Part shown: positions 24,238 to 62,085 of the stretch, piece after piece
How positions within the stretch are numbered: position 1 is the stretch's first letter
Layout: every line of letters begins with the position of its first letter
NCBI RefSeq assembly: GCF_000970305.1
Contig: NZ_CP009517.1
Location: 2,976,001 to 3,040,000, forward strand
Length of the DNA stretch: 64,000 nt
From: Methanosarcina barkeri 3
GTDB taxonomy: Archaea; Halobacteriota; Methanosarcinia; Methanosarcinales; Methanosarcinaceae
Reading direction: 5' to 3'
The notes under the pieces: generated by a model
The model's database searches: none
The model's input: only the letters and a program-made list of their open reading frames with translations
What the model was told of the DNA's origin: nothing
Program-made: the position numbers and the translations under genes

Positions 24238-26967
24238 TTAAGTGTTTTTTTCAATTACTTTAAACCTTACAGTAAACTCAGTACCTTTGTTCCTTTTCAA
24301 TTTAAGTTCTCCATCTAACTGATTTACTAGAGTGTTTACTAACTGCATGCCAAGTGACTCGACACTTTCTAATTTCAGACCTTCGGGAATTCCTTTTCCA
24401 TTATCTGAGACTGTCAGACAGAAATCTGACCTGTGAATTCCGTTGACAGTCTCTTCATACCTACGAAGTTGAATTCCAATATCTCCTTCTTTCTTTTCAG
24501 TGAATGCATGTTTGAGAGAATTGGAAATTAGTTCATTAACAATTATGCCTAAAGGAACAGCGGTATCCATATCAAGAAATGCGTTCTCTTCCAGATCCAT
24601 ATTCAAACGGATATTTATGCTGCTAAGTTTATAAGTCATCAACAGGTTATCAGCTAATTTCTTAAGATACGCTGAGAAGTTAAGTTTTTCTCCCTGTCCT
24701 CCTTTGTAGAGTTCTTCGTGGATTAGAGACATTGAGAGTACACGGTTCTGACTTTCACTGAAAGCTTGTTTGACTGTCTTGTCCTCAAACTTTTCAGCCT
24801 GGAGGTCCAAAAGAGAAGAGATTACCTGCAGGTTATTTTTGATTCTGTGGTGAATCTCTTTTATACGGACTTTTTCGAGTTTTATCAGGGCTTCTTCTGT
24901 TTTTTTACGTTCAGTTATATCTTGAATTATTCCTCTAACTCTAATAGGAGCGTTTTTTTCATCAAAAATCACTTGTCCCTGTGCATAAAGTATATGTTCT
25001 TCTCTATCAGCTGAGATAACTCTAAAGTCGATTTCAAAAGATTTCCCGTAAAAAGCTTCTTTAAAAGCATTATTCACATATTCTCTATCTTCTGGAAGAA
25101 CAAGATTCAAAAATGCGTCATAAGTCTCATCGAACTCCTGAGAGCGAAGTCCGAAAATATTGCGTATTTCATCTGACCAGTATAATTCATCAGTTACCAG
25201 GTTCCAGTCCCAATTTCCGAGATGAGCTATTTTTTGAGCTTCACTTAGTCTCATTTTATTTTCAAGTAATGAGTTATAAGCCTCTTCAAGTTCAATTGTA
25301 CGCTCTTTAATTTTTTCTTCTAATGTATCATTTGCTTTTTTTAATGCCTCTTCAGCTCTTTTGCGCTCGGTAATGTCAACTGCAATACAGATAATTCCGA
25401 CAATGGCTCCTGTGGCATCAAGCAATGGCTCAGTGGTCATCTCATTGAAAAAATCTCCACCACTAGAAGAAGGCCTATGGATAACCACTTCATCACATCT
25501 GCTGACACCACTAGTCAAAACCTGCTTTTTGATAGAGGCAAGAGTCTCAGCGTCATCCAACTGATATATATCATAGTCACTCTTACCTAGAAGGTCTTCA
25601 AGTTTGAAACCAGGCGAAGGGTTATAAGCCCACGTATATCTCAGATCACGGTCTTGACTGGAAATAACAATAGAAGATCCCTGCAAAGCGACACGGAAGC
25701 GCTCTTCGGACTTATGTAACATTTCTTCGATTTGCGCTCGCTCTATAATATCTGCCGCCTGCTGAGCTAGCAGGTCAATTAACTGAAGTTCATGACCTTG
25801 TAGTTTATGTGGTTTTTTGTAATGTGTTGAGAACATGCCGAGTAACCTTCCTGACCGGCTTACAATTGGTGTAGATTGTACCGCTCTTATTCCGGCTTTA
25901 AGCTGGATTTCCAGAGCAGGGGTACCTACGAAAATTGGACTTTGTTCAACATCCTCGACAATTGCCCTCTCTTTACGTCCAAGTGCAGTACCACAAGTTC
26001 CTTTTCCCATCGATACACTGTTCCAGAAGTCCAGCCACCATTTGGGAAATCCACGATAAGCTACAATCTTAAGTTCAGACGATTCTGGGTTCAGTAATTG
26101 GATATTGCCAAAGTCAGCACTAGAAATTGCAATTGCTGCATCGACGATCTCGCCAAGAACTGGTTCAAGAGAGCCTTCATGAACGAACAGCGTGCCGATC
26201 TTATGAAGTCTAGTCATAGCATTAAGGTCGGCCTGTAGACGTTTTTTGCTATCGTTCAATGCTTTCTCTGACCTGGCCTGCTCTATCATGTCAGCTGCCT
26301 GCCGTGCTAGCAGGTCAAGCCTCCAGAGATCATGCTTATTTGGAGAATAAGGAAAGTTCCATTGGGTCGTAAGGATACCAAGAAGCTCACCCGTTCGGCT
26401 TAATATTGGTGTGGACTGAATCGCTCGTACTCCGGCTTCGCGCATCACAGTCAGGGAAGGTGTCCCGACAAACACAGAACTTGTTTCAACATCCTCAATA
26501 ACAATACGTTCTCCTTGTTGCATCACCTTTCCACAAACCGAAGCCACGTTCTCAGCAGATGCAAAATAATCCAGAAAAGGCTGTTTGTGACCATAATGAG
26601 CAACAATATGTAGCGAATCATCCTCAAGAAGTTGCAAAGTACCCATTTTTGCGTCTACGATAGAGATTGCTGCGTCCATTATTTCTTTTAATAGTGGTTG
26701 AATCCCTTCCGATCCCAGAAGTTTTGTACTCAGTTCATGTATTTGAGTCAGTGCTTCCAGATCGGCTTTTACAAGAAGATGTGCCTGTTTTTTCTCCGGA
26801 TCTAGTTCATCAATATCGTACTTAGGTCCTTTATCCTGCTTCAAACATGCTCTTAGGCTCTGTATCTTGTCTTTTAAGGCACGATTTTCGTCCACCAGTA
26901 GCTTATTCTCATCTAATAATGCTTGATATTTTATAGGCTCACAGCCATCAGTATATTTGGTAGCCAT
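24238..26967 (-). CDS. Soluble sensor histidine kinase: GAF-GAF-PAS-PAS-HisKA_2-HATPase
   Basis: 909 residues, no membrane segments. Order: a short coiled coil (DENKLLVDENRALKDKIQSLR), GAF1 (~75-220), GAF2 (~255-405), PAS (~425-535), a coiled coil, a PAS/PAC (~595-690), HisKA_2 with phospho-acceptor EIHHRIKNNLQVISSLLDLQ (~705-780), and HATPase_c with NELISNSLKHAF and DNGKGIPEGLKLES. This is the common methanosarcinal kinase type. The signal is unknown; GAF domains in related Methanosarcina kinases can bind haem, but I see nothing that proves this here. GAF2 is almost duplicated in the next gene. No response regulator gene is nearby. Confidence 0.93.
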   Translation of the reverse strand: MATKYTDGCEPIKYQALLDENKLLVDENRALKDKIQSLRACLKQDKGPKYDIDELDPEKKQAHLLVKADLEALTQIHELSTKLLGSEGIQPLLKEIMDAAISIVDAKMGTLQLLEDDSLHIVAHYGHKQPFLDYFASAENVASVCGKVMQQGERIVIEDVETSSVFVGTPSLTVMREAGVRAIQSTPILSRTGELLGILTTQWNFPYSPNKHDLWRLDLLARQAADMIEQARSEKALNDSKKRLQADLNAMTRLHKIGTLFVHEGSLEPVLGEIVDAAIAISSADFGNIQLLNPESSELKIVAYRGFPKWWLDFWNSVSMGKGTCGTALGRKERAIVEDVEQSPIFVGTPALEIQLKAGIRAVQSTPIVSRSGRLLGMFSTHYKKPHKLQGHELQLIDLLAQQAADIIERAQIEEMLHKSEERFRVALQGSSIVISSQDRDLRYTWAYNPSPGFKLEDLLGKSDYDIYQLDDAETLASIKKQVLTSGVSRCDEVVIHRPSSSGGDFFNEMTTEPLLDATGAIVGIICIAVDITERKRAEEALKKANDTLEEKIKERTIELEEAYNSLLENKMRLSEAQKIAHLGNWDWNLVTDELYWSDEIRNIFGLRSQEFDETYDAFLNLVLPEDREYVNNAFKEAFYGKSFEIDFRVISADREEHILYAQGQVIFDEKNAPIRVRGIIQDITERKKTEEALIKLEKVRIKEIHHRIKNNLQVISSLLDLQAEKFEDKTVKQAFSESQNRVLSMSLIHEELYKGGQGEKLNFSAYLKKLADNLLMTYKLSSINIRLNMDLEENAFLDMDTAVPLGIIVNELISNSLKHAFTEKKEGDIGIQLRRYEETVNGIHRSDFCLTVSDNGKGIPEGLKLESVESLGMQLVNTLVNQLDGELKLKRNKGTEFTVRFKVIEKNT

Positions 26968-27267
26968 ATTTTTATACTGACCTTTTAAGATTAATTTTAT
27001 CTTGCTGATATAGTTCTCTTAAATCATTTTTTACTTTAATATTCGATTAACATCTCCAGTATTTTTACGTTAATAGCGCTAGTTTCTGCTTCTTTTGACA
27101 CTGCTTTCTTGAGATTGCACTTAACAAATGTTATGCCAGTTATTTGGATAGCCTGATTTCACGCTTGAGACTTTTAATGGTGTGAAATTATAAGGGAAAT
27201 TTATAATAATTGAACAAGAATTATATTTCTTCAGGTTTTATTTTCACTGTCACAACTATTCACTTTT

Positions 27268-27990
27268 TTAAAGATGTGCCCTTTCGATAATATCTGCTGC
27301 ACTGCGAGCTAGAAGATCCAACATTTGAAGCGTGTTTTCGTCCGGCTTATGTGGCTTTTTATATTGTGTTGAGAACATGCCGAGCGGTTTTCCTGACCTG
27401 CTCACAATTGGTGTAGATTGTACCGCTCTTATTCCGGCTTTAAGCTGGATTTCCAGAGCAGGTGTACCTGCAAAAATCGGGCTTTGTTCAACATCCTCGA
27501 CAATTACTCTCTCCTTACGTCCAAGTGCAGTACCACAAGTTCCTTTTCCTACAGATACACTGTTCCAGAAGTCCAGCCACCATTTGGGAAATCCACGATA
27601 AGCTACAATTTTAAGTTCAGATGTTTCAGGGTCCAGTAATTGGATATTGCCAAAGTCAGCACCAGAAATTGCAATTGCTGCATCGACTATCTCGCTAAGA
27701 ACTGGCTCAAGATTGCCCTCACGAACGAACAACATGCTGAGTTTATACATTCTGGTCATTGCATCGAGATCGAACATTAACTGTTTCTCGCGCTCACTAG
27801 AAGTTGTCTCTGCCTGTTCCGGATCAATTTTGTCTGTAATCCGTTCAACTCCTTCAGTCTGCCCCAGACATGCTCTTAAACTCTGTATCTCCTCCTTTAA
27901 TGTATTATTTTCACCTACCAGTAACTTATTCTCATCCAATAGTGTCTGATACGTTGTGGATTCTTGACTTGTAGTATATCTAGAACTCAT
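27268..27990 (-). CDS. GAF-domain protein, truncated copy of the neighbouring kinase
   Basis: 240 residues: a coiled coil (TLLDENKLLVGENNTLKEEIQSLRACL) and a single GAF nearly identical to GAF2 of the kinase downstream (IQLLDPETSELKIVAYRGF, GKGTCGTALGRKERVIVEDVEQS). It ends AADIIERAHL exactly where the kinase continues into its PAS domains. No kinase remnant follows, so the protein is either a GAF-only sensor partner or a recent partial duplication. Start at ATG 27990 (MSSRYTTSQ), preceded by a GGTGG site; a longer in-frame start to 28110 has no similarity to the kinase. Confidence 0.75.
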   Translation of the reverse strand: MSSRYTTSQESTTYQTLLDENKLLVGENNTLKEEIQSLRACLGQTEGVERITDKIDPEQAETTSSEREKQLMFDLDAMTRMYKLSMLFVREGNLEPVLSEIVDAAIAISGADFGNIQLLDPETSELKIVAYRGFPKWWLDFWNSVSVGKGTCGTALGRKERVIVEDVEQSPIFAGTPALEIQLKAGIRAVQSTPIVSRSGKPLGMFSTQYKKPHKPDENTLQMLDLLARSAADIIERAHL

Positions 27991-28490
27991 GCTTTCCACC
28001 ATCCATAAACAATCTGTTAATCTTCGAAATTTTGAGTTTTCGATAAGTTTGAGTTTTCGATAGTTTGTAGTAAACATGCCTAAAAATTGACTAATTATAC
28101 AATGGGACAATTGATTCTATTTAGTTTAAAGCCTGGATAGAAAACTTATCTGAAATTCAGGTGTATATTTACCCTTGAGTCGAATTTTGAACCCCAATTA
28201 TGCAATCAAATGTAGTTATGAGGCTATATGGCTACTATGATTTTTACTTTGATTTTTGATTAGAATTATAAAAATACTAAATATGAACCTAATTATATTT
28301 AGTATAAAATGGATTAAATAAAAATCTTAACTTAAGTTATATATAGATATATTATAATATTCATATTTATGTTATAATCCTTAATAATAATCATTAAATT
28401 ATTAGATATATAGATAGGACATATTATTTAATACCTGCTTTAGTAACAAGCACAGTACAACAAATTAAGAGATTAAAATCAAAGTTGCAC

Positions 28491-28678
28491 TGGCGCACCC
28501 TGCTGCAAGCAACGGGGTATATTCGCGCCACCGCTTGAAATTTCGTTAAAAGAAATAGTAACCCCTAAACGGTTAGTTTGAGCAGAAGTTAACAACCGAA
28601 AAATGGAACTGATAAATTTATAATCATCAACGGTTACTGGAGAAGTTTCCATCCCCGCAGCAAGCTAGCGGGTATTCG
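28491..28678. repeat. Pair of related hairpin sequences
   Basis: Two GC-rich islands in an AT-rich gap. 28498-28525 and 28653-28678 share the pattern CCC-GC-GCAAGC-GGG-GTAT-TTCG. Each can fold (CCCGC/GCGGG in the second). The first is nested within TGGCGC/GCGCCA arms (28491-28496 and 28525-28530). They may be ends or remnants of a small dispersed element. The rest of 27991-28844 has no gene. Confidence 0.5.
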
Positions 28679-28844
28679 ACTGGAATAAAAAATCAATATG
28701 GTATTATTTACAAAACAAGTGAATAAAATCAAATGTTTTAACAATAAAAGACGTGCTTAAGTACTAGAATTTTATTATAAATAATTATGAAAAATTACCA
28801 ATTTGTAAGCATATATTCGAAAATAAAAATTCGAGACTGATAAA

Positions 28845-29063
28845 GTGATCGGCTTTTCTTATGTTTTTATTCTTTTCGCATTGATTGGTTTACTTTCCTT
28901 TATTTTCTGGACATAGATTCTTATTGACTGTGCAAAGAATGAGACAGATATAGGAAACACACGCCTGATCTGGATCGCAATTATTGTCTTAACCTTTATC
29001 GTGGGAGCTTTTCTATACTATCTCATCCGACGCCCTAAGAGACTTTTAGAGCTGGGGGAATAA
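28845..29063 (+). CDS. PLDc_N-type small membrane protein with in-frame UAG (codon 24)
   Basis: Reading from GTG 28845 gives 72 codons to TAA 29061-29063 with a single TAG at 28914-28916. Residues before it form one membrane helix (FSYVFILFALIGLLSFIFWT). Residues after it continue the same family without frame change: ILIDCAKNETD, then a second helix and GAFLYYLIRRPKRLLELGE. This is the PLDc_N (phospholipase D-nuclease N-terminal) two-helix domain, which has a W-x-W-x-x-x-D-C pattern at the helix 1 end. The UAG falls where the second tryptophan is expected, one transition from TGG. In a genome with pylT it may be read as pyrrolysine; otherwise this is a nonsense mutant. Confidence 0.6.
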
Positions 29064-29811: not shown

Positions 29812-32343
29812 TCACCCCATCTTTAAAGTTTTAGCGTTTATTGCTACAATCACGGTGCTCAAGCTCATGAAAACTGCGCCAATAGCAGGACTCAATAAGA
29901 TTCCGTATCCATAGAGTACCCCGGCTGCAAGAGGAATGGCAAAAACGTTGTATCCTGTTGCCCAGAGGAGGTTCTGATACATCTTGGAGTAAGTTTTTCT
30001 GGAAAGCTTAATTATATAAACTACATCCCTAGGATCATTTTTTACCAGGACAATATCAGCGGTCTCAATTGCAACGTCAGTACCTGCACCGATGGCTATC
30101 CCGACGTCAGCCTGAGCCAGGGCAGGTGCATCATTAACCCCATCTCCAACCATACCTGTGATATATTCCGCCTGGACTTCCTTGACTTTCTCTGCTTTTT
30201 CGTGAGGAAGGACTTCAGCGAAATAATCATCGAGTTCTAATTCCTGGGATACCCAGGCTGCTACGTAACGATTATCTCCTGTAAGCATAAGGCATTTAAT
30301 TCCCATGCTTTTAAGTTTTGAGATAGCTTCCCTGGACTCTTTCCTGATAATGTCGGCAAGTGCAACAGCTCCAAGTACACGGTCCTCCTGAAGCAGGAAA
30401 ACTACAGTTTTTCCCTGTGTTTCGATTTCTTCAATCTTTTCGTTTTTGAGAGAAATTCCGTTTTCTTCAAGGTAGCCAGGGCTTACAACAAGAAATTTTT
30501 TTCCTCCAACCAGGCCATGTACTCCTTTTCCCGGAATTGAACTGAATTCTTCCACGGACTGAGTCTGTAACCCTTTTTCCCGGGCACTTTCCAGAATACC
30601 TGCAGCAATAGGGTGCTCAGAACTGGCTTCCAGAGAGGCTGCAAGGCTTAAGATTCTATCACTACTCATTCCGTTATCTCCGTCCCCAGACCCAATTTTT
30701 TCTCCTGAAAGAGAAACTACATCCGTAACTCCAAACCGACCTTCGGTCAATGTACCGGTTTTGTCAAAAATAATAGCTTGAAGATTGCGTGCTCTTTCAA
30801 ATGCCTGTCTGTCCCGGATAAGAAGCCCGGTTTTTGCGGCAATAGACGTTGAAACTGCGACCACAAGAGGTATTGCAAGCCCAAGGGCATGCGGACAGGT
30901 AATAACCATTACAGTCACTGCCCTTTCAAGTGCAAAGACAAGCTGCTGGCCGATAAGAATCCAGACAATAAGAGTGAGAGTTCCCACGGAAAGGGCTATG
31001 ATTGTGAGATACATGGCAGCCCGATTTGCCAGGTCCTGGGTTTTTGATTTGCTTTCCTGAGCAGCTCTGACAAGTTCGACAACCTGGTTGAGATAGGTAT
31101 CCTTTCCGGTTTTTTCTACACTAACAACGAAAGCCGCTTCTCCGTTAATCGAGCCACCAATAACGTCATTTCCAGGCTTTTTCGTAACAGGCTTCGACTC
31201 TCCGGTAAGCATGGATTCGTTGACGCTGCTTGTCCCCTCTACAACAGTTCCGTCTACAGGCACTTTTTCTCCGGGCTTAATCAAAACCTTATCCCCGACC
31301 TTTAGCTGGTCAACTGCGATATCGACAACTTCACCATTTTTCTTCATATGGGCAACCGAAGGCATAATTTTTACCAGCTCTTCGAGGGCTCTTGAAGCTC
31401 CCATAACCGAACGCATCTCAAGCCAGTGCCCAAGCAGCATTATATCGATAAGGGTCACGAGCTCCCAGAAAAAAACCTCACCATGAAGCCCGAAAACCAC
31501 AGCCGAACTGTAAAAATATGCCACGCTTATTGCAATGGCTATAAGAGTCATCATTCCAGGGGATTTTTCGGAAAGTTCCTCTTTAATCCCCCTTAGAAAA
31601 GGGTACCCACCATAGAAATATACAACAGAAGAAAGCAAAAAAATTATATAGTCTGCACCTGGAACACGAAACTCAAAATTGAAAAAATCCTGGATCATTG
31701 GCGAAAGCAGCAAAACGGGAAAAGTTAACACAAAAGAAACAATAAATCTTTTTCTAAAATCTTCAAGCATGTGAGTATGATGGTTGCCGTGCTCTTTCCC
31801 ACCTGTTGCTTCGTGACCTTCGTGACCTTCGTGTTTCATCCCTTCGTGTTTCATCCCTTCGTGTTTCATCCCTTCGTGTTTTATCCCTTCGTGTTTCATC
31901 CCTTCATGTCTTATCCCTTCATCCTTCATCCCTTCGTGTTTTATCCCTTCATGTTCCATCTCTTCAGGTTTTATCCCTTCATGTTCCATCTCTTCAGGTT
32001 TTATCCCTTCATCCTTCATGCCATGCCGCTCATGCTGTGTCTCACCCAATTTGTGTTCCATTTCGCTACGTTCGTGTTTCATTTTATCAGGCTGTTCAGA
32101 GCTACTATGACCCACTTCTTCACGTTGCCCTTGGTCCAGTGATTTTTCTTCAGTACGCATGGTTTGCTCTTCGGGATTACCGTGATGCACCATACCTGCA
32201 GGCTTATTCCTACGTTCCTCGTGAGACCCACGTGAATTTCCTTGCATGCCTCTTCCGAACTCGCGCTCTTTATCATTGGATGAGGATTCATTTACCTGAC
32301 TATTAGAAATCCCGGTGTCCACTCTCTTCTCTTCAGCCTGCAT
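29812..32343 (-). CDS. copB: CopB-type copper-translocating P-type ATPase with Met/His-rich repeat tail
   Basis: 843 residues. The transport core is a P1B ATPase with TGES, the CPH motif (ITCPHALGLAIPL) that marks the CopB/P1B-3 group, DKTGTLTEG, MLTGDN and MVGDGVNDAPALAQADVGIAIG. It would export Cu (or Ag). The first ~185 residues are hydrophilic and contain tandem pentapeptides of the EGMKH/EGIKP type followed by HEGHEATGGKEHGNHHTHM. These give a dense Met/His metal-binding tail encoded by 15-bp repeats at about 31810-32030. Start ATG has a GGGGA site. A small membrane protein gene follows. Confidence 0.93.
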   Translation of the reverse strand: MQAEEKRVDTGISNSQVNESSSNDKEREFGRGMQGNSRGSHEERRNKPAGMVHHGNPEEQTMRTEEKSLDQGQREEVGHSSSEQPDKMKHERSEMEHKLGETQHERHGMKDEGIKPEEMEHEGIKPEEMEHEGIKHEGMKDEGIRHEGMKHEGIKHEGMKHEGMKHEGMKHEGHEGHEATGGKEHGNHHTHMLEDFRKRFIVSFVLTFPVLLLSPMIQDFFNFEFRVPGADYIIFLLSSVVYFYGGYPFLRGIKEELSEKSPGMMTLIAIAISVAYFYSSAVVFGLHGEVFFWELVTLIDIMLLGHWLEMRSVMGASRALEELVKIMPSVAHMKKNGEVVDIAVDQLKVGDKVLIKPGEKVPVDGTVVEGTSSVNESMLTGESKPVTKKPGNDVIGGSINGEAAFVVSVEKTGKDTYLNQVVELVRAAQESKSKTQDLANRAAMYLTIIALSVGTLTLIVWILIGQQLVFALERAVTVMVITCPHALGLAIPLVVAVSTSIAAKTGLLIRDRQAFERARNLQAIIFDKTGTLTEGRFGVTDVVSLSGEKIGSGDGDNGMSSDRILSLAASLEASSEHPIAAGILESAREKGLQTQSVEEFSSIPGKGVHGLVGGKKFLVVSPGYLEENGISLKNEKIEEIETQGKTVVFLLQEDRVLGAVALADIIRKESREAISKLKSMGIKCLMLTGDNRYVAAWVSQELELDDYFAEVLPHEKAEKVKEVQAEYITGMVGDGVNDAPALAQADVGIAIGAGTDVAIETADIVLVKNDPRDVVYIIKLSRKTYSKMYQNLLWATGYNVFAIPLAAGVLYGYGILLSPAIGAVFMSLSTVIVAINAKTLKMG

Positions 32344-37645: not shown

Positions 37646-37952
37646 TTTTTTAAGATTCGTCGGACAAAACCCCCTTATAAGCCCTCTTACATACTTATAG
37701 ATCCTTGAATATATAGCATTATTCCGTTTGTACCCCCTTTGTATTATATCCACATATGTTTTGCAATACGTTTGTACTATATTTACAGTATACACTTATC
37801 ATATTTGTAGTGCCTGTGCAGTATCCTTGCACCATGTTTATATTATATTCATATTTCCAAAAAGTCTGAAGAGAAATTATGTAGATCTCCCTAAAAGGTT
37901 GACACCCGAAAAATCACAAAGTATAATAACAAGAGATGGAAGGTTTCTAATT

Positions 37953-39227
37953 ATGCCTGAAATAAAACTTGACAGATCGATCTCATATCTCGAAGGGACA
38001 CAGCGAGTATATGATGAAGCCACAACCCTGGAAAACACTAAAGATGAGATAAAAAAGATAGGGGTTACCCGAATTGCAGATATTACAAACCTTGACAGGC
38101 TAGGAATCCCTATTTTTTCGGCAATCCGCCCCAGTGCCGCAAGGGGAGCGATCAGTATATACTCAGGCAAGGGCTCAACTGAGCAAAGGGCCCGGATTTC
38201 GGCGATAATGGAAAGTTTTGAGCGCTGCCTTGCAGAAAGACCTGGCCTGAACGCAAATATTAAAAGTGAGATTTCTGCCCCGACCCTTGTAGAATCCTAT
38301 GTCAGAGCTATAGAAAGCTGCACAGTGCTCGACCCTGCAACGCTACTTCTACCCCAGCCTTATCTTCCCCAGTCTTTGCTTGAATGGGTTGGAACATACG
38401 ATTTAATGAACAATGAAGAAGTGTTCGTAAGCTCTAACTCGGTTTATCACCCGTACGACTCACCCGGACAATGTCAGAAACTCTTCCTGAGCAATACCAA
38501 TGGGCTGGCGTCCGGAAACGTGATTGAAGAAGCTATTCTTCACGGGATGCTTGAGGTTATAGAAAGGGACGCAATAAGCATAGCACAGTATTCCCGCAAT
38601 CTCGGAAAAGAAATCGTGCTAACTGAGAAAGATGGATACCTGTACGAACTTGCCAGCAAATTTAAAGATGCAGGAATAGAACTCAAAATCTGGCTGGTCC
38701 CGAGCGATACCGGCATTCCGACAGTAATTGCGGTAACTGATGACGTAAAACTTAAAGACCCTGCGCTTCTCGTCATGGGTGCAGGCTCCCACCTGAAACC
38801 CGAAATTGCAGTTGCGAGAGCTATAACCGAAGCTGCCCAATCACGAGTAGTTCAAATTCAGGGAGCAAGGGAAGACACGGATAGAGAAGGTTTTATCCGA
38901 AGTGTGGGATATGACCGCATGAAGCGGTTAAACAGGTTCTGGTTTGAAGATGGAGAAAAAATATCTCTTTCCGAAGTACAGGACCTATCCAGAAAAAGCC
39001 CTGCAGAAAATATCGATGTAATCCTCGAAAAACTTAAAGGTCTAGCCGAAAGAGTGCTGGTGGTAGACCTCTCAAGAGAAGAGATTAAAGTGCCGGTTGT
39101 GCGAGTAATAATTCCCGGATTAGAACTTTTCACTATTGACAGGGATCGGAAAGGAAAAAGGATCGGCTCTCAAAGGAAGAAAGAATTCTCCAGAAACAAA
39201 AATGAAAAGCCGTGGAAGAGACGATGA
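37953..39227 (+). CDS. ycaO: YcaO protein for McrA thioamidation
   Basis: 424 residues. YcaO enzymes use ATP to activate a peptide backbone amide. The family signatures are RISAIMESFERCLAERP and EEAILHGMLEVIERDAISIAQYSR, plus AVARAITEAAQSR. In Methanosarcina acetivorans the ycaO-tfuA pair is known to install thioglycine in methyl-CoM reductase subunit McrA, and the same pairing here makes that the best assignment. The ATG at 37953 has a GGAAGGT site; longer frames run into AT-rich noncoding sequence. The stop overlaps the tfuA start (ATGA). Confidence 0.93.
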   Translation: MPEIKLDRSISYLEGTQRVYDEATTLENTKDEIKKIGVTRIADITNLDRLGIPIFSAIRPSAARGAISIYSGKGSTEQRARISAIMESFERCLAERPGLNANIKSEISAPTLVESYVRAIESCTVLDPATLLLPQPYLPQSLLEWVGTYDLMNNEEVFVSSNSVYHPYDSPGQCQKLFLSNTNGLASGNVIEEAILHGMLEVIERDAISIAQYSRNLGKEIVLTEKDGYLYELASKFKDAGIELKIWLVPSDTGIPTVIAVTDDVKLKDPALLVMGAGSHLKPEIAVARAITEAAQSRVVQIQGAREDTDREGFIRSVGYDRMKRLNRFWFEDGEKISLSEVQDLSRKSPAENIDVILEKLKGLAERVLVVDLSREEIKVPVVRVIIPGLELFTIDRDRKGKRIGSQRKKEFSRNKNEKPWKRR

Positions 39228-39883
39228 AAGCAAAAGTGGTGATCTTTACAGGCAACAGCATTAGCCATGAGGACGCAAGAAAAGTTCTCAGGGCAAATTA
39301 CCAGCCTCCTGTACGCAGGTTCCAGCTTGAAAAATTCGTTCAGAAAGGGTATAAGGTAATAGGAATAATAGACGGAATGTTTTTTGACAGGGCAGCTGTT
39401 GGACACAGGGAGATTCTGTCTGCGCTTGATGCAGGTGTAAAGGTAGTTGGAGGTGCCAGCATGGGAGCTCTACGGGCTTCTGAACTGGATGTCCACGGCA
39501 TGATAGGAGTAGGAAAGGTTTACGAATGGTACAGGGACGGTGTAATCGAATCAGATGATGAAGTTGCAGTAAGCACAAACCCTGACACTTTCGAGCCCAT
39601 TTCCGTACCCCTTGTCAATATAAGAGAAACGCTAAAAGCCGCATTTGCCTCAGGACTTTTGAGTAAAGAAGAACATGACGGTCTTCTGGAGCTTGCAATT
39701 AACACTTATTATCCTGACCGGAGCTATCTCGGACTTGTAAAAGAAGGGGCAAAAAAAGGGCTAATCCCGGAAGAAAAGAAAAAATCCTTTCTGAATTTTT
39801 TCACAGGCAATGAAGTTGACGTAAAAATGGAAGATGCGGTCCTGGTACTTGAAACCGTAAAAAAACTGATTGAAGAAGCTTGA
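39224..39883 (+). CDS. tfuA: TfuA-like protein, partner of YcaO
   Basis: 219 residues of the TfuA family: VVIFTGNSISHEDARKVL at the N-terminus, then GYKVIGIIDGMFFDRAAVGHREILSAL and GASMGALRASELDVHGMIGVGKVYEWY. TfuA is thought to deliver sulfur or support YcaO during thioamide formation on McrA. Translation starts inside the ycaO stop (ATGA overlap), so the two are coupled. A 15/16-bp repeat array follows. Confidence 0.93.
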   Translation: MKAKVVIFTGNSISHEDARKVLRANYQPPVRRFQLEKFVQKGYKVIGIIDGMFFDRAAVGHREILSALDAGVKVVGGASMGALRASELDVHGMIGVGKVYEWYRDGVIESDDEVAVSTNPDTFEPISVPLVNIRETLKAAFASGLLSKEEHDGLLELAINTYYPDRSYLGLVKEGAKKGLIPEEKKKSFLNFFTGNEVDVKMEDAVLVLETVKKLIEEA

Positions 39884-49009: not shown

Positions 49010-49789
49010 TTAGAGCACAGAATACAGCATTGATACCGTTCCGATTCCAAGAGGTTCAGCTACAAGTTGTACATCATATTTTGTTCGAAGTTCTTCAGAG
49101 ATTGCACAGGGAATTCCTGGAGTTGAAAGCACGCAGTTCTCCGAAAGTACAGGTTCAGGAATCGTGTTTGCGCACGGAGTCGCTTCGAAAATAATGGAAA
49201 ACTTTTTTGGTTTTTCAGGGTTGAACGGGATAACCCCGAGGCTTGAAACGGCTCTCTGAAGGAAGTTTTCATCAGGATCATAACCGTAAACCCTGAAGCC
49301 TTTCTGCACAAGGTGGGCTGCTCCGGGAAAACCTACCTTTCCGAGTCCCACAACAAGTACGTTCTTTGAATCGGCTTTCAGGTATCTGGAAGCAATCTCA
49401 GCATAAATTATACCTGTGCAGGGTTGGTTATTGGCCATTTTTCCGTTTTTGAGGTTATGCGCAAGAAAAGTGTAGTCGTCGGCCATGAGAATAATCTCAG
49501 CTCCGTTCCGTACAGCTTCATAATAGCCGCTAACATCCAGCATATCCGTAACAAAACTTTCAAATCCGAAATACTGAGTAATCGCGTTCAGGGAAGCGGA
49601 AAAGTTTCCTATTATCCCATTTCCCGAAGTTACGGGAACAATACCTACTTTTTCGGAACCAGGGAAAGTACCGTAGAGAGCTTTACAGATGCCTTTTATG
49701 TCAAGCCCTGTTACTCTTTGAACAGTAGAATCGGCTTCCTGAAGCTGTTTATTAATATTTATCAAATCGTTTGGAGTTAAAAGTGCCAT
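49010..49789 (-). CDS. pylD: Pyrrolysine biosynthesis dehydrogenase PylD
   Basis: 259 residues. PylD oxidises the lysine-methylornithine peptide, which then cyclises to pyrrolysine. A Rossmann core VLVVGLGKVGFPGAAHLV is visible, with IFEATPCANTIPEPVLSENCVLSTPGIPCAISEEL towards the end. ATG 49789 (MALLTPNDLININKQLQ) matches the known start; an upstream in-frame extension is ignored. Last gene of pylSBCD. The start region is almost identical to units of the tandem array between pylB and pylS. Confidence 0.96.
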   Translation of the reverse strand: MALLTPNDLININKQLQEADSTVQRVTGLDIKGICKALYGTFPGSEKVGIVPVTSGNGIIGNFSASLNAITQYFGFESFVTDMLDVSGYYEAVRNGAEIILMADDYTFLAHNLKNGKMANNQPCTGIIYAEIASRYLKADSKNVLVVGLGKVGFPGAAHLVQKGFRVYGYDPDENFLQRAVSSLGVIPFNPEKPKKFSIIFEATPCANTIPEPVLSENCVLSTPGIPCAISEELRTKYDVQLVAEPLGIGTVSMLYSVL

Positions 49790-49970
49790 TTTTATCGCCA
49801 TTTTATGTTTTGGGGGATTTAAGTCTAATTTCATTAAATTCGGATTTAATAAAATTTGATTTCCTTAAACCTGGGTATTTAATGCCATTTTATCAAAATT
49901 TGAGTGTTCTAAGTCTTAGATTCACTAAATATTATTTTTCATTTCCTTTTTAATTTACTTTAATACTCTT

Positions 49971-51062
49971 TCAGACAGCTGCTCCGAAACGATCTTTCAG
50001 AACTGAAAGTCCTTTGCATTTTTTTGCTCCGGCTTCTTCCCTGTCTTTGCCCCAGAAAATCAGGGTAAATACCGGATTCTCTCCTTTGCATAGAAAAATC
50101 TCAATGCCAGGTTCTTCATAGAATTTTCCGTAATCACTCCCCATGGAAAATACCTGTTCTCCCACAGGAACAAGAATCCCGTTTTCTCCAAGCATAAGAT
50201 GCTCATAAATGCAATATTTATCCTCGGGAAAAGACCCGGTTTCCTCAATACCGTCAGTAAAGGCACGGAACAGGAGTTCTATCAGGTTGATCCCTGAAGA
50301 ATAATAAACGACTGTCGGGGTCTGGCTTGGGAAACGAGCATCAATTTCGATTACTTTAAGCCCTTTTGGACCGAAGATTGCTTCCACATCCATAATCCCT
50401 TTCAAGGAAAGGTTTGCTGCAAGAGCATGGGAGATCTGCCTGAATAAAGGATTAGCAGGAAGCGGAGTTACCATGTGGCAGTCATAAGTTTCGTCTATAT
50501 GGACCTGGGTCTCTTTTACCACGGCAAAATTACTTCCATCACCTATAACTTCGAGAGAAACGACCTCACCTTCCACATATTCTTCAACCAGCATGTCAGG
50601 CTCAAGGGTTCCAAGCTCTTCATTATCGTAAATGATCCTGGTCCCCACACTGCTGCTTTCACAGGGTGGCTTTACAAAATAAGGTGGCTCTGAAGGCTTG
50701 TCCTGCGGAGTCGGGACTCCTATGGACTTAAAGTAATCTTTTGAACTTTTCTTATCCCTGCTTACTCGATAAGCATCAAAATCGAAAAGAACCGGACAAG
50801 AGAACTTTTCTTTGATTGAATTCAGAAATTCGATGCAGGCCAGGTTTTCGTTGACAGGAAGTATAGCATCAACCTTTATTGAGAGATCAAGAAGTTTCTC
50901 AGGCTCCTTTATTACGTCAAAACAGTAAAACTCATCCGCATAGTTACGGATGAGAGCCTGCGGATTTTTATCTACCAGAACTACTTTTATTCCGGCTTTT
51001 TTAGATAGATACGCAGCTTCGAAGCCCTGGAGTTTCCCACCTACAAGACAGATCGTTTTCAA
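49971..51062 (-). CDS. pylC: Pyrrolysine biosynthesis ligase PylC
   Basis: 363 residues, an ATP-grasp ligase that joins 3R-methyl-ornithine to the epsilon-amine of lysine. It begins MKTICLVGGKLQGFEAAYLSKKAG (TTG start at 51062). ATP-grasp elements include PPYFVKPPCESSSVGTRII, MLVEEYVEGEVVSLEVIG and GLKVIEIDARFPSQTPTVVYYSSG. A GGGGTG site lies inside the end of pylB, and the TTG overlaps the pylB amber stop by one base spacing (TAGCTTG), so the two genes are coupled. An ATG at 51086 is in frame but not used by relatives. Confidence 0.95.
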   Translation of the reverse strand: MKTICLVGGKLQGFEAAYLSKKAGIKVVLVDKNPQALIRNYADEFYCFDVIKEPEKLLDLSIKVDAILPVNENLACIEFLNSIKEKFSCPVLFDFDAYRVSRDKKSSKDYFKSIGVPTPQDKPSEPPYFVKPPCESSSVGTRIIYDNEELGTLEPDMLVEEYVEGEVVSLEVIGDGSNFAVVKETQVHIDETYDCHMVTPLPANPLFRQISHALAANLSLKGIMDVEAIFGPKGLKVIEIDARFPSQTPTVVYYSSGINLIELLFRAFTDGIEETGSFPEDKYCIYEHLMLGENGILVPVGEQVFSMGSDYGKFYEEPGIEIFLCKGENPVFTLIFWGKDREEAGAKKCKGLSVLKDRFGAAV

Positions 51063-51063
51063 G

Positions 51064-52116
51064 CTAGCACCCCAGGATTGTCTCAAAGTCAGCCTGCAGG
51101 GCAGGTTTCATACCCATAATCTCAAGCCTTCTGACAACACTTTTTATATCCCGGTCTCTTTCTTCAAGGTCACGGTCATAGTTTGCAACGCCTTCTAGTT
51201 GGGAATCAGGAGGAAGAATAGAAGTAACAATGTTTGCTCCTGCGTTTAAGCGGTGGACCATGCCGTCAATGCCTTCCAGGTCAAGGGAAGCAGGAATGAG
51301 GCGTTTGGGAAACATTAACCTGAGAACCGAGATGATTTTCAGTTCCGAGAGGTTTGATTTATCTCTGAAACCTTCAAGCGGGGTTCCATCCTGGGGCAGG
51401 AAGGTCATAACTCTGACCATATCAGGATTGTTTGTACTCATTCCCCTTAAGGACAAAATAGTGGATTCAATATCATTTCCAACCCCTGTGAGGATTCCGT
51501 CTTCTATACAATATCCCTGCTTTTTAGCAAAACGGCGTGCGTTGACACGCCCATCGAATGACTGTTCAACTCTAAGTTTCCTATAGAGTTCGGTGTCATA
51601 TGTTTCCTGGTAAAGGGCAAGGAAGTTTGCTCCTTTTTCCCTGGCTTTGAGAAGAGTAGCATTATCCATCAATCCCGGAGAAATCATTATGGGTAACCCA
51701 AGTTCCTCTTTTACTATCTGGACAAGCTCAACGAACCGGTCCGGATCTTCATAGTAATAGGGGTCTTCTCCCATGGTCAGGTCAACCATATGAAAGCCTG
51801 CTCCTTTCAGGGCTTTGCAGGTTTCTTTTATCTCTTCCATGGTCAGTCGATAGCGATGGATCTCGTTTCGACAATTATAGTAGCAAAAAGAACATTGATT
51901 TTTACAGTAAGTAGAGAAATAGATGAAACAATTAAGAAATACCCTGTTGCCAAAATAATGATCTCTTACTTTTCGCGCTGCAGAGTAGAGTCTTTCCAGG
52001 TCTTTTTCGGATTCAAGGGAAAGAAGAGCTCTCAAGTCATCATCAGTTAATTGGTACCCTTCAATGACCTTTTTCCCTAAACTGTCAAATTTATCAAGTG
52101 CCATTTTTTGGATCAA
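51064..52116 (-). CDS. pylB: Methylornithine synthase PylB (radical SAM)
   Basis: 350 residues. PylB rearranges lysine to (3R)-3-methyl-D-ornithine. The [4Fe-4S]-SAM motif is CKNQCSFC (C71, C75, C78), in a TIM-barrel of the BioB/HydE group (DLTMGEDPYYYEDP, NFLALYQETYDTELY, GVGNDIESTI, MTFLPQDGTPLEGF). The TTG at 52116 follows GAGGGTGA, and the resulting MIQKM start agrees with known PylB. The stop codon is UAG; read-through would add pyrrolysine plus 20 residues to a TAA at 51001-51003. Confidence 0.96.
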   Translation of the reverse strand: MIQKMALDKFDSLGKKVIEGYQLTDDDLRALLSLESEKDLERLYSAARKVRDHYFGNRVFLNCFIYFSTYCKNQCSFCYYNCRNEIHRYRLTMEEIKETCKALKGAGFHMVDLTMGEDPYYYEDPDRFVELVQIVKEELGLPIMISPGLMDNATLLKAREKGANFLALYQETYDTELYRKLRVEQSFDGRVNARRFAKKQGYCIEDGILTGVGNDIESTILSLRGMSTNNPDMVRVMTFLPQDGTPLEGFRDKSNLSELKIISVLRLMFPKRLIPASLDLEGIDGMVHRLNAGANIVTSILPPDSQLEGVANYDRDLEERDRDIKSVVRRLEIMGMKPALQADFETILGC

Positions 52117-52261
52117 AATTTCACCCTCTCATAAATTATTTAGATGTTTATCGACCTTAAAAAGGCCGATTAAGAATTCAATCTCGCCATTTAGCCTATT
52201 TTACCATATTGAGTATTTACCATCCCATTTTTTATTCAATATTGCCATTCAATATTGTTAT

Positions 52262-52459
52262 TTTACATTTTGCCATTCTTTATCGCCATTTTATGTTTTG
52301 CCATTCTTTATTGCCATTTTATGTTTTGCCATTCTTTATTGCCATTTTACATTTGTCATTCTTTATTGCCACTTTACATTTTGCCACTTTTTATTGCCAT
52401 ATTACATTTTGCCACTTTTTATTGCCATATTACATTTTGCCACTTTTTATTGCCATTCA
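52262..52459. repeat. About seven ~29-bp tandem repeats between pylB and pylS
   Basis: Units of the type TTTTGCCATTCTTTATTGCC + ATTTTATG drift gradually into TTTTGCCACTTTTTATTGCC + ATATTACA. The left unit (52271-52300) matches the pylD start region (49784-49812) in 29 of 30 positions. Several short frames across it are repeat artefacts. It lies in the pylS-pylB intergenic part of the operon. Confidence 0.9.
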
Positions 52460-52526
52460 ATGTGAAGCTCTGATATCTTCAATCTGTATTTAGCGGCCTC
52501 AAACTGCTTTAAATAGGTTTTCAAAC

Positions 52527-53801
<1,275 letters not shown>

Positions 53802-54032: not shown

Positions 54033-54104
54033 TGGCGGAAACCCCGGGAATCTAACCCGGCTGAACGGATTTAGAGTCCATTCGATCTACATGATCAGGT
54101 TTCC
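54033..54104 (-). tRNA. pylT: tRNA-Pyl (CUA anticodon)
   Basis: 72 nt including an encoded CCA (complement of 54033-54035). The acceptor stem GGAAACC/GGTTTCC pairs perfectly. It has the peculiar features of tRNA-Pyl: a tiny D-loop region (TGATCATGTAGATC), a 6-bp-type anticodon stem around GGACTCTAAATCC with CUA (54072-54074 on the complement), a very short variable loop, and a T arm CCGGGTTAGATTCCCGG. It decodes UAG as pyrrolysine. It is transcribed in the same direction as pylS, with AT-rich promoter-like sequence upstream (54160-54200). Confidence 0.97.
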
Positions 54105-60708: not shown

Positions 60709-62085
60709 ATGACATTTAGAAAATCATTCGACTGCTACGATTTCTACGACAGGGCAAAAGTAGGGGAAAAGTGCACCCAGGACGACTGGGACCTCATGAG
60801 GATCCCGATGAAGGCAATGGAACTCAAGCAGAAATACGGGCTTGACTTCAAGGGAGAGTTTGTTCCGACAGACAAGGAAATGATGGAAAAACTCTTCAAC
60901 GCAGGCTTTGAGATGCTCCTTGACTGCGGAATTTACTGTACAGACACACACAGGATCGTAAAGTACACTGAAGATGAAATCTGGGATGCAATTAACAACG
61001 TGCAGAAAGAATTCGTGCTCGGAACTGGCAGAGATGCAGTAAACGTAAGAAAGAGAAGTGTTGGTGACAAGAAAAAGCCAATAGTGCAGGGTGGACCTAC
61101 TGGGTCTCCGATTTCCGAAAATGTGTTTATGCCTGTTCACATGAGCTATGCCCTCGAAAAGGAAGTAGACACCATTGTTAATGGTGTGATGACCTCTATA
61201 CGCGGGAAAGCGCCTATTCCAAAGAGCCCTTACGAAGTTCTTGCAGCAAAGACAGAAACAAGACTAATTAAGAATGCTTGCGCCATGGCTGGTAGGCCTG
61301 GCATGGCTGTCTAGGGACCAGAGACCTCCCTGTCCGCTCAGGGAAACATTTCCGCCGACTGCGCTGGCGGAATGACCTGTACGGACAGCCACGAGGTCTC
61401 GCAACTCAACGAACTTAAAATCGACCTGGATGCAATTTCAGTTATTGCTCACTACAAGGGGAACAGCGACATCATAATGGATGAACAGATGCCGATTTTC
61501 GGTGGATATGCAGGCGGAATTGAAGAAACCACAATTGTTGATGTTGCAACCCACATAAATGCCGTGATAATGAGCACCGCAAGCTGGCACCTTGATGGGC
61601 CTGTCCACATCCGCTGGGGATCAACCAACACCAGGGAAACACTGATGATTGCAGGATGGGCATGTGCAACAATTTCAGAATTTACAGACATACTGTCAGG
61701 TAACCAGTACTACCCATGTGCAGGTCCATGCACTGAGATGTGTCTCCTTGAGGCTTCAGCCCAGTCCATTACTGATACAGCTTCTGGAAGAGAAATCCTT
61801 TCAGGTGTCGCAGCCGCAAAGGGTGTGGTTACAGACAAGACCACAGGTATGGAAGCCAGGATGATGGGAGAAGTGGCAAGGGCAACTGCAGGAGTAGAAA
61901 TTTCAGAAGTAAATGTGATCCTTGACAAGCTTGTAGCACTTTACGAGAAGAATTATGCAAATGCTCCGGCAGGAAAGACATTCCAGGAATGCTACGACGT
62001 AAAGACAGTAACACCAACTGATGAGTACATGCAGGTATACGACGGAGCAAGAAAGAAGCTCGAAGAATTAGGGCTTGTATTCTAA
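60709..62085 (+). CDS. mtmB: Monomethylamine methyltransferase MtmB with pyrrolysine (UAG codon 202)
   Basis: 458 residues when the in-frame TAG at 61312-61314 (codon 202, after AMAGRPGMAV) is read as pyrrolysine. The frame continues GPETSLSAQGNISADCAGG and ends KLEELGLVF. MtmB is a TIM barrel in which pyrrolysine orients the methylamine for attack by Co(I) of MtmC. The two stretches on either side are one gene, as in all known MtmB; the position of the UAG matches the family. GGGAGG precedes ATG. A strong terminator follows. Confidence 0.98.

Follow-up and report, generated by a model that had tools for sequence, protein, structure and literature searches.

A lineage-specific in-frame TAG codon in the gene of a PLDc_N-type membrane protein in a Methanosarcina genome with pyrrolysine genes

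Introduction

In methanogens that carry the pyl genes, UAG is a stop codon and a sense codon alike (PMC2933860). For the methylamine methyltransferases MtmB, MtbB and MttB, pyrrolysine (Pyl) was proposed to act in the transfer of the methyl group (PMC2933860). When an amber codon was introduced in uidA in M. acetivorans, 20-30% of full-length pyrrolysine-containing product was obtained, and PYLIS was found not to be essential for pyrrolysine insertion (PMC2933860).

The tRNA-His guanylyltransferase (Thg1) of M. acetivorans contains an in-frame amber codon that is species-specific and neutral. PMC2933860 reports, after Heinemann et al. 2009, that the presence of pyrrolysine in this protein was physically observed and that the residue was not essential for activity. 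Like neutral reasoning was applied to other in-frame amber candidates (PMC3639795). Here we describe an in-frame TAG codon in a gene of the PLDc_N family and compare it with these systems.

Results

A PLDc_N-type gene interrupted by a single TAG

The stretch of DNA analyzed here, 64,000 nucleotides in length and referred to as the window, comprises bases 2,976,001-3,040,000 of a Methanosarcina chromosome of 4.56 Mb, which is complete and was assembled as a single closed contig. The gene and the features belonging to it are the following, each with the evidence used.

28845..29063, + strand: gene of a two-helix PLDc_N-type membrane protein (frame, Pfam match, intact orthologues)
28914..28916, + strand: in-frame TAG for ancestral TGG (Trp24), with base 28915 changed from G to A (direction taken from comparison with M. 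spelaei, UBA11020 and four other species)
28845..28847, + strand: start codon GTG, where 17 of 17 Methanosarcina orthologues read at the start codon have ATG (codon alignment)
28832..28835, + strand: Shine-Dalgarno core, GAGA here and in L007; GAGG in M. spelaei, UBA11020 and three further relatives of the barkeri group (comparison with relatives)

The 72 codons at 28845-29060 on the forward strand, followed by TAA at 29061-29063, read VIGFSYVFILFALIGLLSFIFWT[TAG]ILIDCAKNETDIGNTRLIWIAIIVLTFIVGAFLYYLIRRPKRLLELGE in one frame, and the TAG at 28914-28916, codon 24, was the only in-frame interruption. When residue 24 was entered as tryptophan, the translation matched the Pfam family PLDc_N (PF13396) with 31.6 bits (E=1.6e-7). 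When the TAG residue was entered as O, which was passed to the programs as K, the score was 25.4 bits, still above the cut-off of 23.3. Hydropathy indicated two membrane segments, at about residues 1-28 and 37-61; residue 24 lies close to the end of the first. The gene thus has the profile match and the two segments of a PLDc_N member, and lacks the uninterrupted frame because of the TAG. In six close relatives, the orthologues were 83-97% identical, covered 71-72 of the 72 residues and were free of stops. This result indicated that both halves belong to a single gene and did not align by chance. The frame, the Pfam score and the intact orthologues all agreed with the preliminary description, in which the PLDc_N halves share one frame broken only by this TAG.

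No in-frame ATG, GTG or TTG was present 3' of the TAG within the frame of 28845-29063. A search of the own genome to E 10 found no second copy of the gene able to substitute for it.

Distribution of the gene and of residue 24

The sequence search of the genus gave a match in 20 of 31 genomes (one of them weak), and the only orthologue with a stop was that of the window. By the family search, 22 PLDc_N sites were found in 19 genomes of the genus, with a stop at one site. When the search was widened to the order, 99 of 186 genomes had a match, and further internal stops occurred only in a few distant matches. Orthologues with an unbroken frame were present across Methanosarcinaceae. Neither in the genus nor in the order did any other orthologue have TAG at codon 24, and no relative made a short form of the 23-residue type.

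The gene was not found in 11 of the 31 genus genomes by the sequence search and in 12 by the family search. Some of the assemblies without the gene were incomplete, and several were 99% complete, so the gene can be lost. Judged from this distribution, the PLDc_N gene is evidently dispensable in the genus and its loss is tolerated.

Codon 24 was TGG in all Methanosarcina orthologues read there, except for CGG (Arg) in L018. The tryptophan at the TAG site, which had been called conserved, was found in 32 of 35 homologues, the window protein included, but it was not invariant: one homologue had Arg, another, a distant paralogue, had Cys, and the window had the stop. Of the other conserved PLDc_N positions, D28, C29 and W43 were retained in the window protein, with D28 and W43 invariant across all 35.

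Direction and timing of the change

The nearest records found were M. spelaei MC-15 and the metagenome-assembled genome UBA11020, whose DNA in the neighbourhood was about 97% and 94% identical to that of the window; these values were assigned to the two relatives by match positions in an output that pools loci L023-L026. The changes on the window branch were polarised with M. spelaei, UBA11020 and the four further relatives as reference. Four coding changes were found: ATG to GTG at codon 1, TTA to TTG at codon 13 (silent), TGG to TAG at codon 24, and GTC to ATC at codon 44 (V44I). Since all close relatives have TGG, the TAG was made by one G-to-A change at 28915 after the split from M. spelaei. 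By this codon comparison, TGG is the ancestral state and TAG is confined to the window lineage. A look at close strains had been proposed beforehand as a check on this codon, with TGG in sister strains as part of the refuting outcome; at the level of sister species, M. spelaei, UBA11020 and the other close relatives all gave TGG.

The GTG start was unique to the window gene. The Shine-Dalgarno pairing was predicted with an assumed anti-Shine-Dalgarno sequence. Its energy was -4.7 kcal/mol in the window and -9.4 in M. spelaei; because intact orthologues ranged from -3.7 to -9.4, the weaker pairing of the window gene is suggestive at most. Of the five changes that the branch shows in the gene and the 20 bases 5' of it, three affected the start codon or the Shine-Dalgarno core or made the stop; random placement gave p of about 0.003 for this, in a test framed post hoc. 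This clustering leans toward relaxed constraint.

The sole change 3' of the TAG was the conservative V44I, with no indel and no second stop. In a simulation of a gene dead from the TAG onward, the chance of having neither a second stop nor an indel was 64-83%, depending on the assumed indel rate. With just four substitutions on the branch, the lack of decay is uninformative and does not discriminate between a living and a dead gene. The earlier remark that the gene is otherwise free of decay held for the coding frame, but not for the start codon (ATG to GTG) or the Shine-Dalgarno core (GAGG to GAGA).

Other stops in the genome

In the 264 kb sampled, 67 genes (21,523 codons) were conserved in two relatives, and among them the TAG of codon 24 was the one mid-gene nonsense codon. 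One further stop in the same sample was a TAA located ten codons after a predicted start that is probably mis-set. The fraction of ORFs of at least 120 aa ending in TAG was 12/198 (about 6%) in the host, compared with 8/187 and 7/196 in two relatives. The 264 kb sampled gave no sign of a shift of the host to general sense use of TAG, in a sample too small to test for an excess of TAG over TAA and TGA.

When the ORFs of the window were compared with four relatives, the PLDc_N gene alone was interrupted against all four. The other interrupted ORFs were rejected as candidates, being short or probably spurious ORFs or gene fragments that were not conserved in all four relatives.

Pyrrolysine machinery in the window

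The following genes of the pyrrolysine machinery were located in the window.

54033..54104, - strand: pylT, tRNA-Pyl with anticodon CUA
52527-53783, - strand: pylS, NCBIfam equivalog match above cut-off
51064-52116, - strand: pylB, NCBIfam equivalog match above cut-off
49971-51086, - strand: pylC, NCBIfam equivalog match above cut-off
49010-49834, - strand: pylD, NCBIfam equivalog match above cut-off

The pyl cassette (pylT, S, B, C and D) is thus complete and lies wholly within the window, with pylS to pylD spanning 49010..53783 on the reverse strand. From the cassette and the uidA result, partial read-through is expected by default, given transcription of the gene and expression of pyl. By this analogy, some pyrrolysine read-through at codon 24 is plausible as a by-product.

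No PYLIS was detected at 28914-28916 by an Rfam search, and the RNA 3' of the TAG showed no unusual fold (z-score 0.72, weaker than the shuffle mean).

The window also contains mtmB at 60709-62085 on the forward strand. This gene has an in-frame TAG of its own (61312-61314) and matches PYLIS_1 with 108.7 bits; it was recognised from that match and from its sequence, with no NCBIfam match, and is a pyrrolysine gene of the ordinary conserved kind. The reverse-strand pylB at 51064-52116 terminates in TAG in the window; the stop of pylB was described as TAA in M. barkeri and as TAG in M. mazei, M. acetivorans and M. burtonii (PMC2933860).

Neighbourhood of the gene

A repeat of about 215 bp was found at 28475-28690, 155 bases upstream of the PLDc_N gene. 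Dozens of copies with 70-92% identity were present in each of four related genomes, and it looks like a short mobile repeat. At 24238-28110 on the reverse strand, two adjoining GAF-domain-like sensor proteins share DNA segments of about 86% identity, and the second ORF is without the kinase end; the pair is apparently a recent partial duplication. A metal-transporting P-type ATPase at 29812-32343 (reverse strand) has a long His/Met-rich N-terminal stretch with tandem EGMKH-like repeats. The YcaO- and TfuA-related proteins of McrA-glycine thioamidation are encoded at 37728-39883 (forward strand) by two ORFs with a 16-base overlap, while UBA11020 has one fused ORF of 736 residues. Either the ORFs are naturally fused in UBA11020 or one of the assemblies contains a frameshift.

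Discussion

Origin and reading of the TAG codon

We consider it very likely that the TAG is a recent nonsense allele in a dispensable gene, with incidental read-through and no selected role of pyrrolysine, like the amber codon of Thg1. A G-to-A transition at 28915 would have turned the Trp24 codon into UAG after the split from M. spelaei. Most ribosomes arriving at UAG24 would probably terminate and leave a 23-residue first-helix peptide, and a minority would probably insert pyrrolysine by means of tRNA-Pyl(CUA) and the synthetase, giving the complete 72-residue protein. Residue 24 would then have no selected role, and the gene would either carry its amber neutrally, as Thg1 does, or be on its way to becoming a pseudogene. 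The derived GTG start and a Shine-Dalgarno weaker than that of the sister species were counted for the nonsense allele. However, GTG is usable as a start and the weakened Shine-Dalgarno is inside the range of intact orthologues. The intact frame 3' of the TAG, changed only by V44I, is also the pattern of a functional protein.

That same frame, together with the complete pyl cassette, would suit a functional pyrrolysine protein outside methylamine metabolism, in which UAG24 is efficiently read and the residue or its dependence on pyl is kept by selection. The Arg24 of L018 adds to this, as a long polar residue was accepted at that position and pyrrolysine might be accepted too. Such a protein is nevertheless very unlikely: no other orthologue has the TAG, in contrast to the ambers of the methylamine methyltransferases, which are conserved; neither a PYLIS match nor an unusual fold follows the TAG; and the gene appears dispensable in the genus. 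To our knowledge, PLDc_N proteins have no chemistry that uses pyrrolysine. We would likewise give very little credence to a working PLDc_N protein that has pyrrolysine in place of the tryptophan close to the end of its first membrane helix, and whose full product would be made only with active pyl genes and in an amount tied to growth on methylamines.

An error of sequencing or assembly at base 28915, with TGG as the true codon, would concern a single base in a single genome, for which the collections searched contained no second isolate. The single closed contig speaks against it. Errors of this type must be rare in the genome, because the 67 conserved genes were otherwise without a mid-gene stop, bar the TAA near a predicted start, and the separate changes of start codon and Shine-Dalgarno are unlike one local error. 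We therefore regard an error as improbable. If the TAG were instead a useful stop, the product used would be the 23-residue first-helix peptide, and the first hydrophobic segment is indeed almost complete before the TAG. But the short form was found in no relative, and the second half has no ATG, GTG or TTG of its own after the TAG, which makes a useful stop extremely unlikely.

The preliminary description had offered a new pyrrolysine protein, a read-through product and a very recent nonsense mutation as options. The nonsense mutation agrees with an ancestral TGG and a lineage-specific TAG, read-through is plausible as a by-product in view of the pyl cassette, and the selected pyrrolysine protein found no positive support. 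As it stands, the case is one point mutation in a gene that seems dispensable, and it urges care before new pyrrolysine proteins are declared on the basis of a single genome. If read-through were shown, the gene would be a further natural example, after Thg1, of a UAG-decoding genome tolerating chance ambers, and it would bear on how codons become ambiguous.

Comparison with known systems

The window gene resembles the PLDc_N proteins (PF13396) of Methanosarcinaceae by homology over 71-72 residues, with up to 97% identity, and by two predicted membrane segments. It differs from those of close relatives, in all of which the frame is unbroken and starts with ATG.

With MtmB, MtbB and MttB it shares an in-frame TAG in a pyl-bearing methanogen, and an mtmB gene lies in the same window. 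The amber of these genes is, however, conserved among genes and species, whereas that of the PLDc_N gene occurs in one lineage, without PYLIS and without related chemistry. Thus, from the features of a selected pyrrolysine codon, the Pyl machinery is present, and the conserved amber and PYLIS (helpful, not essential) are absent.

Pyrrolysine was observed in Thg1, whereas its insertion in the PLDc_N protein is a prediction; the PLDc_N gene also appears dispensable and has changed start signals. The two are nevertheless alike in the features of a neutral amber, namely an amber confined to one species, homologues that are intact elsewhere and a pyl-bearing host, and neither has a role in methylamine metabolism.
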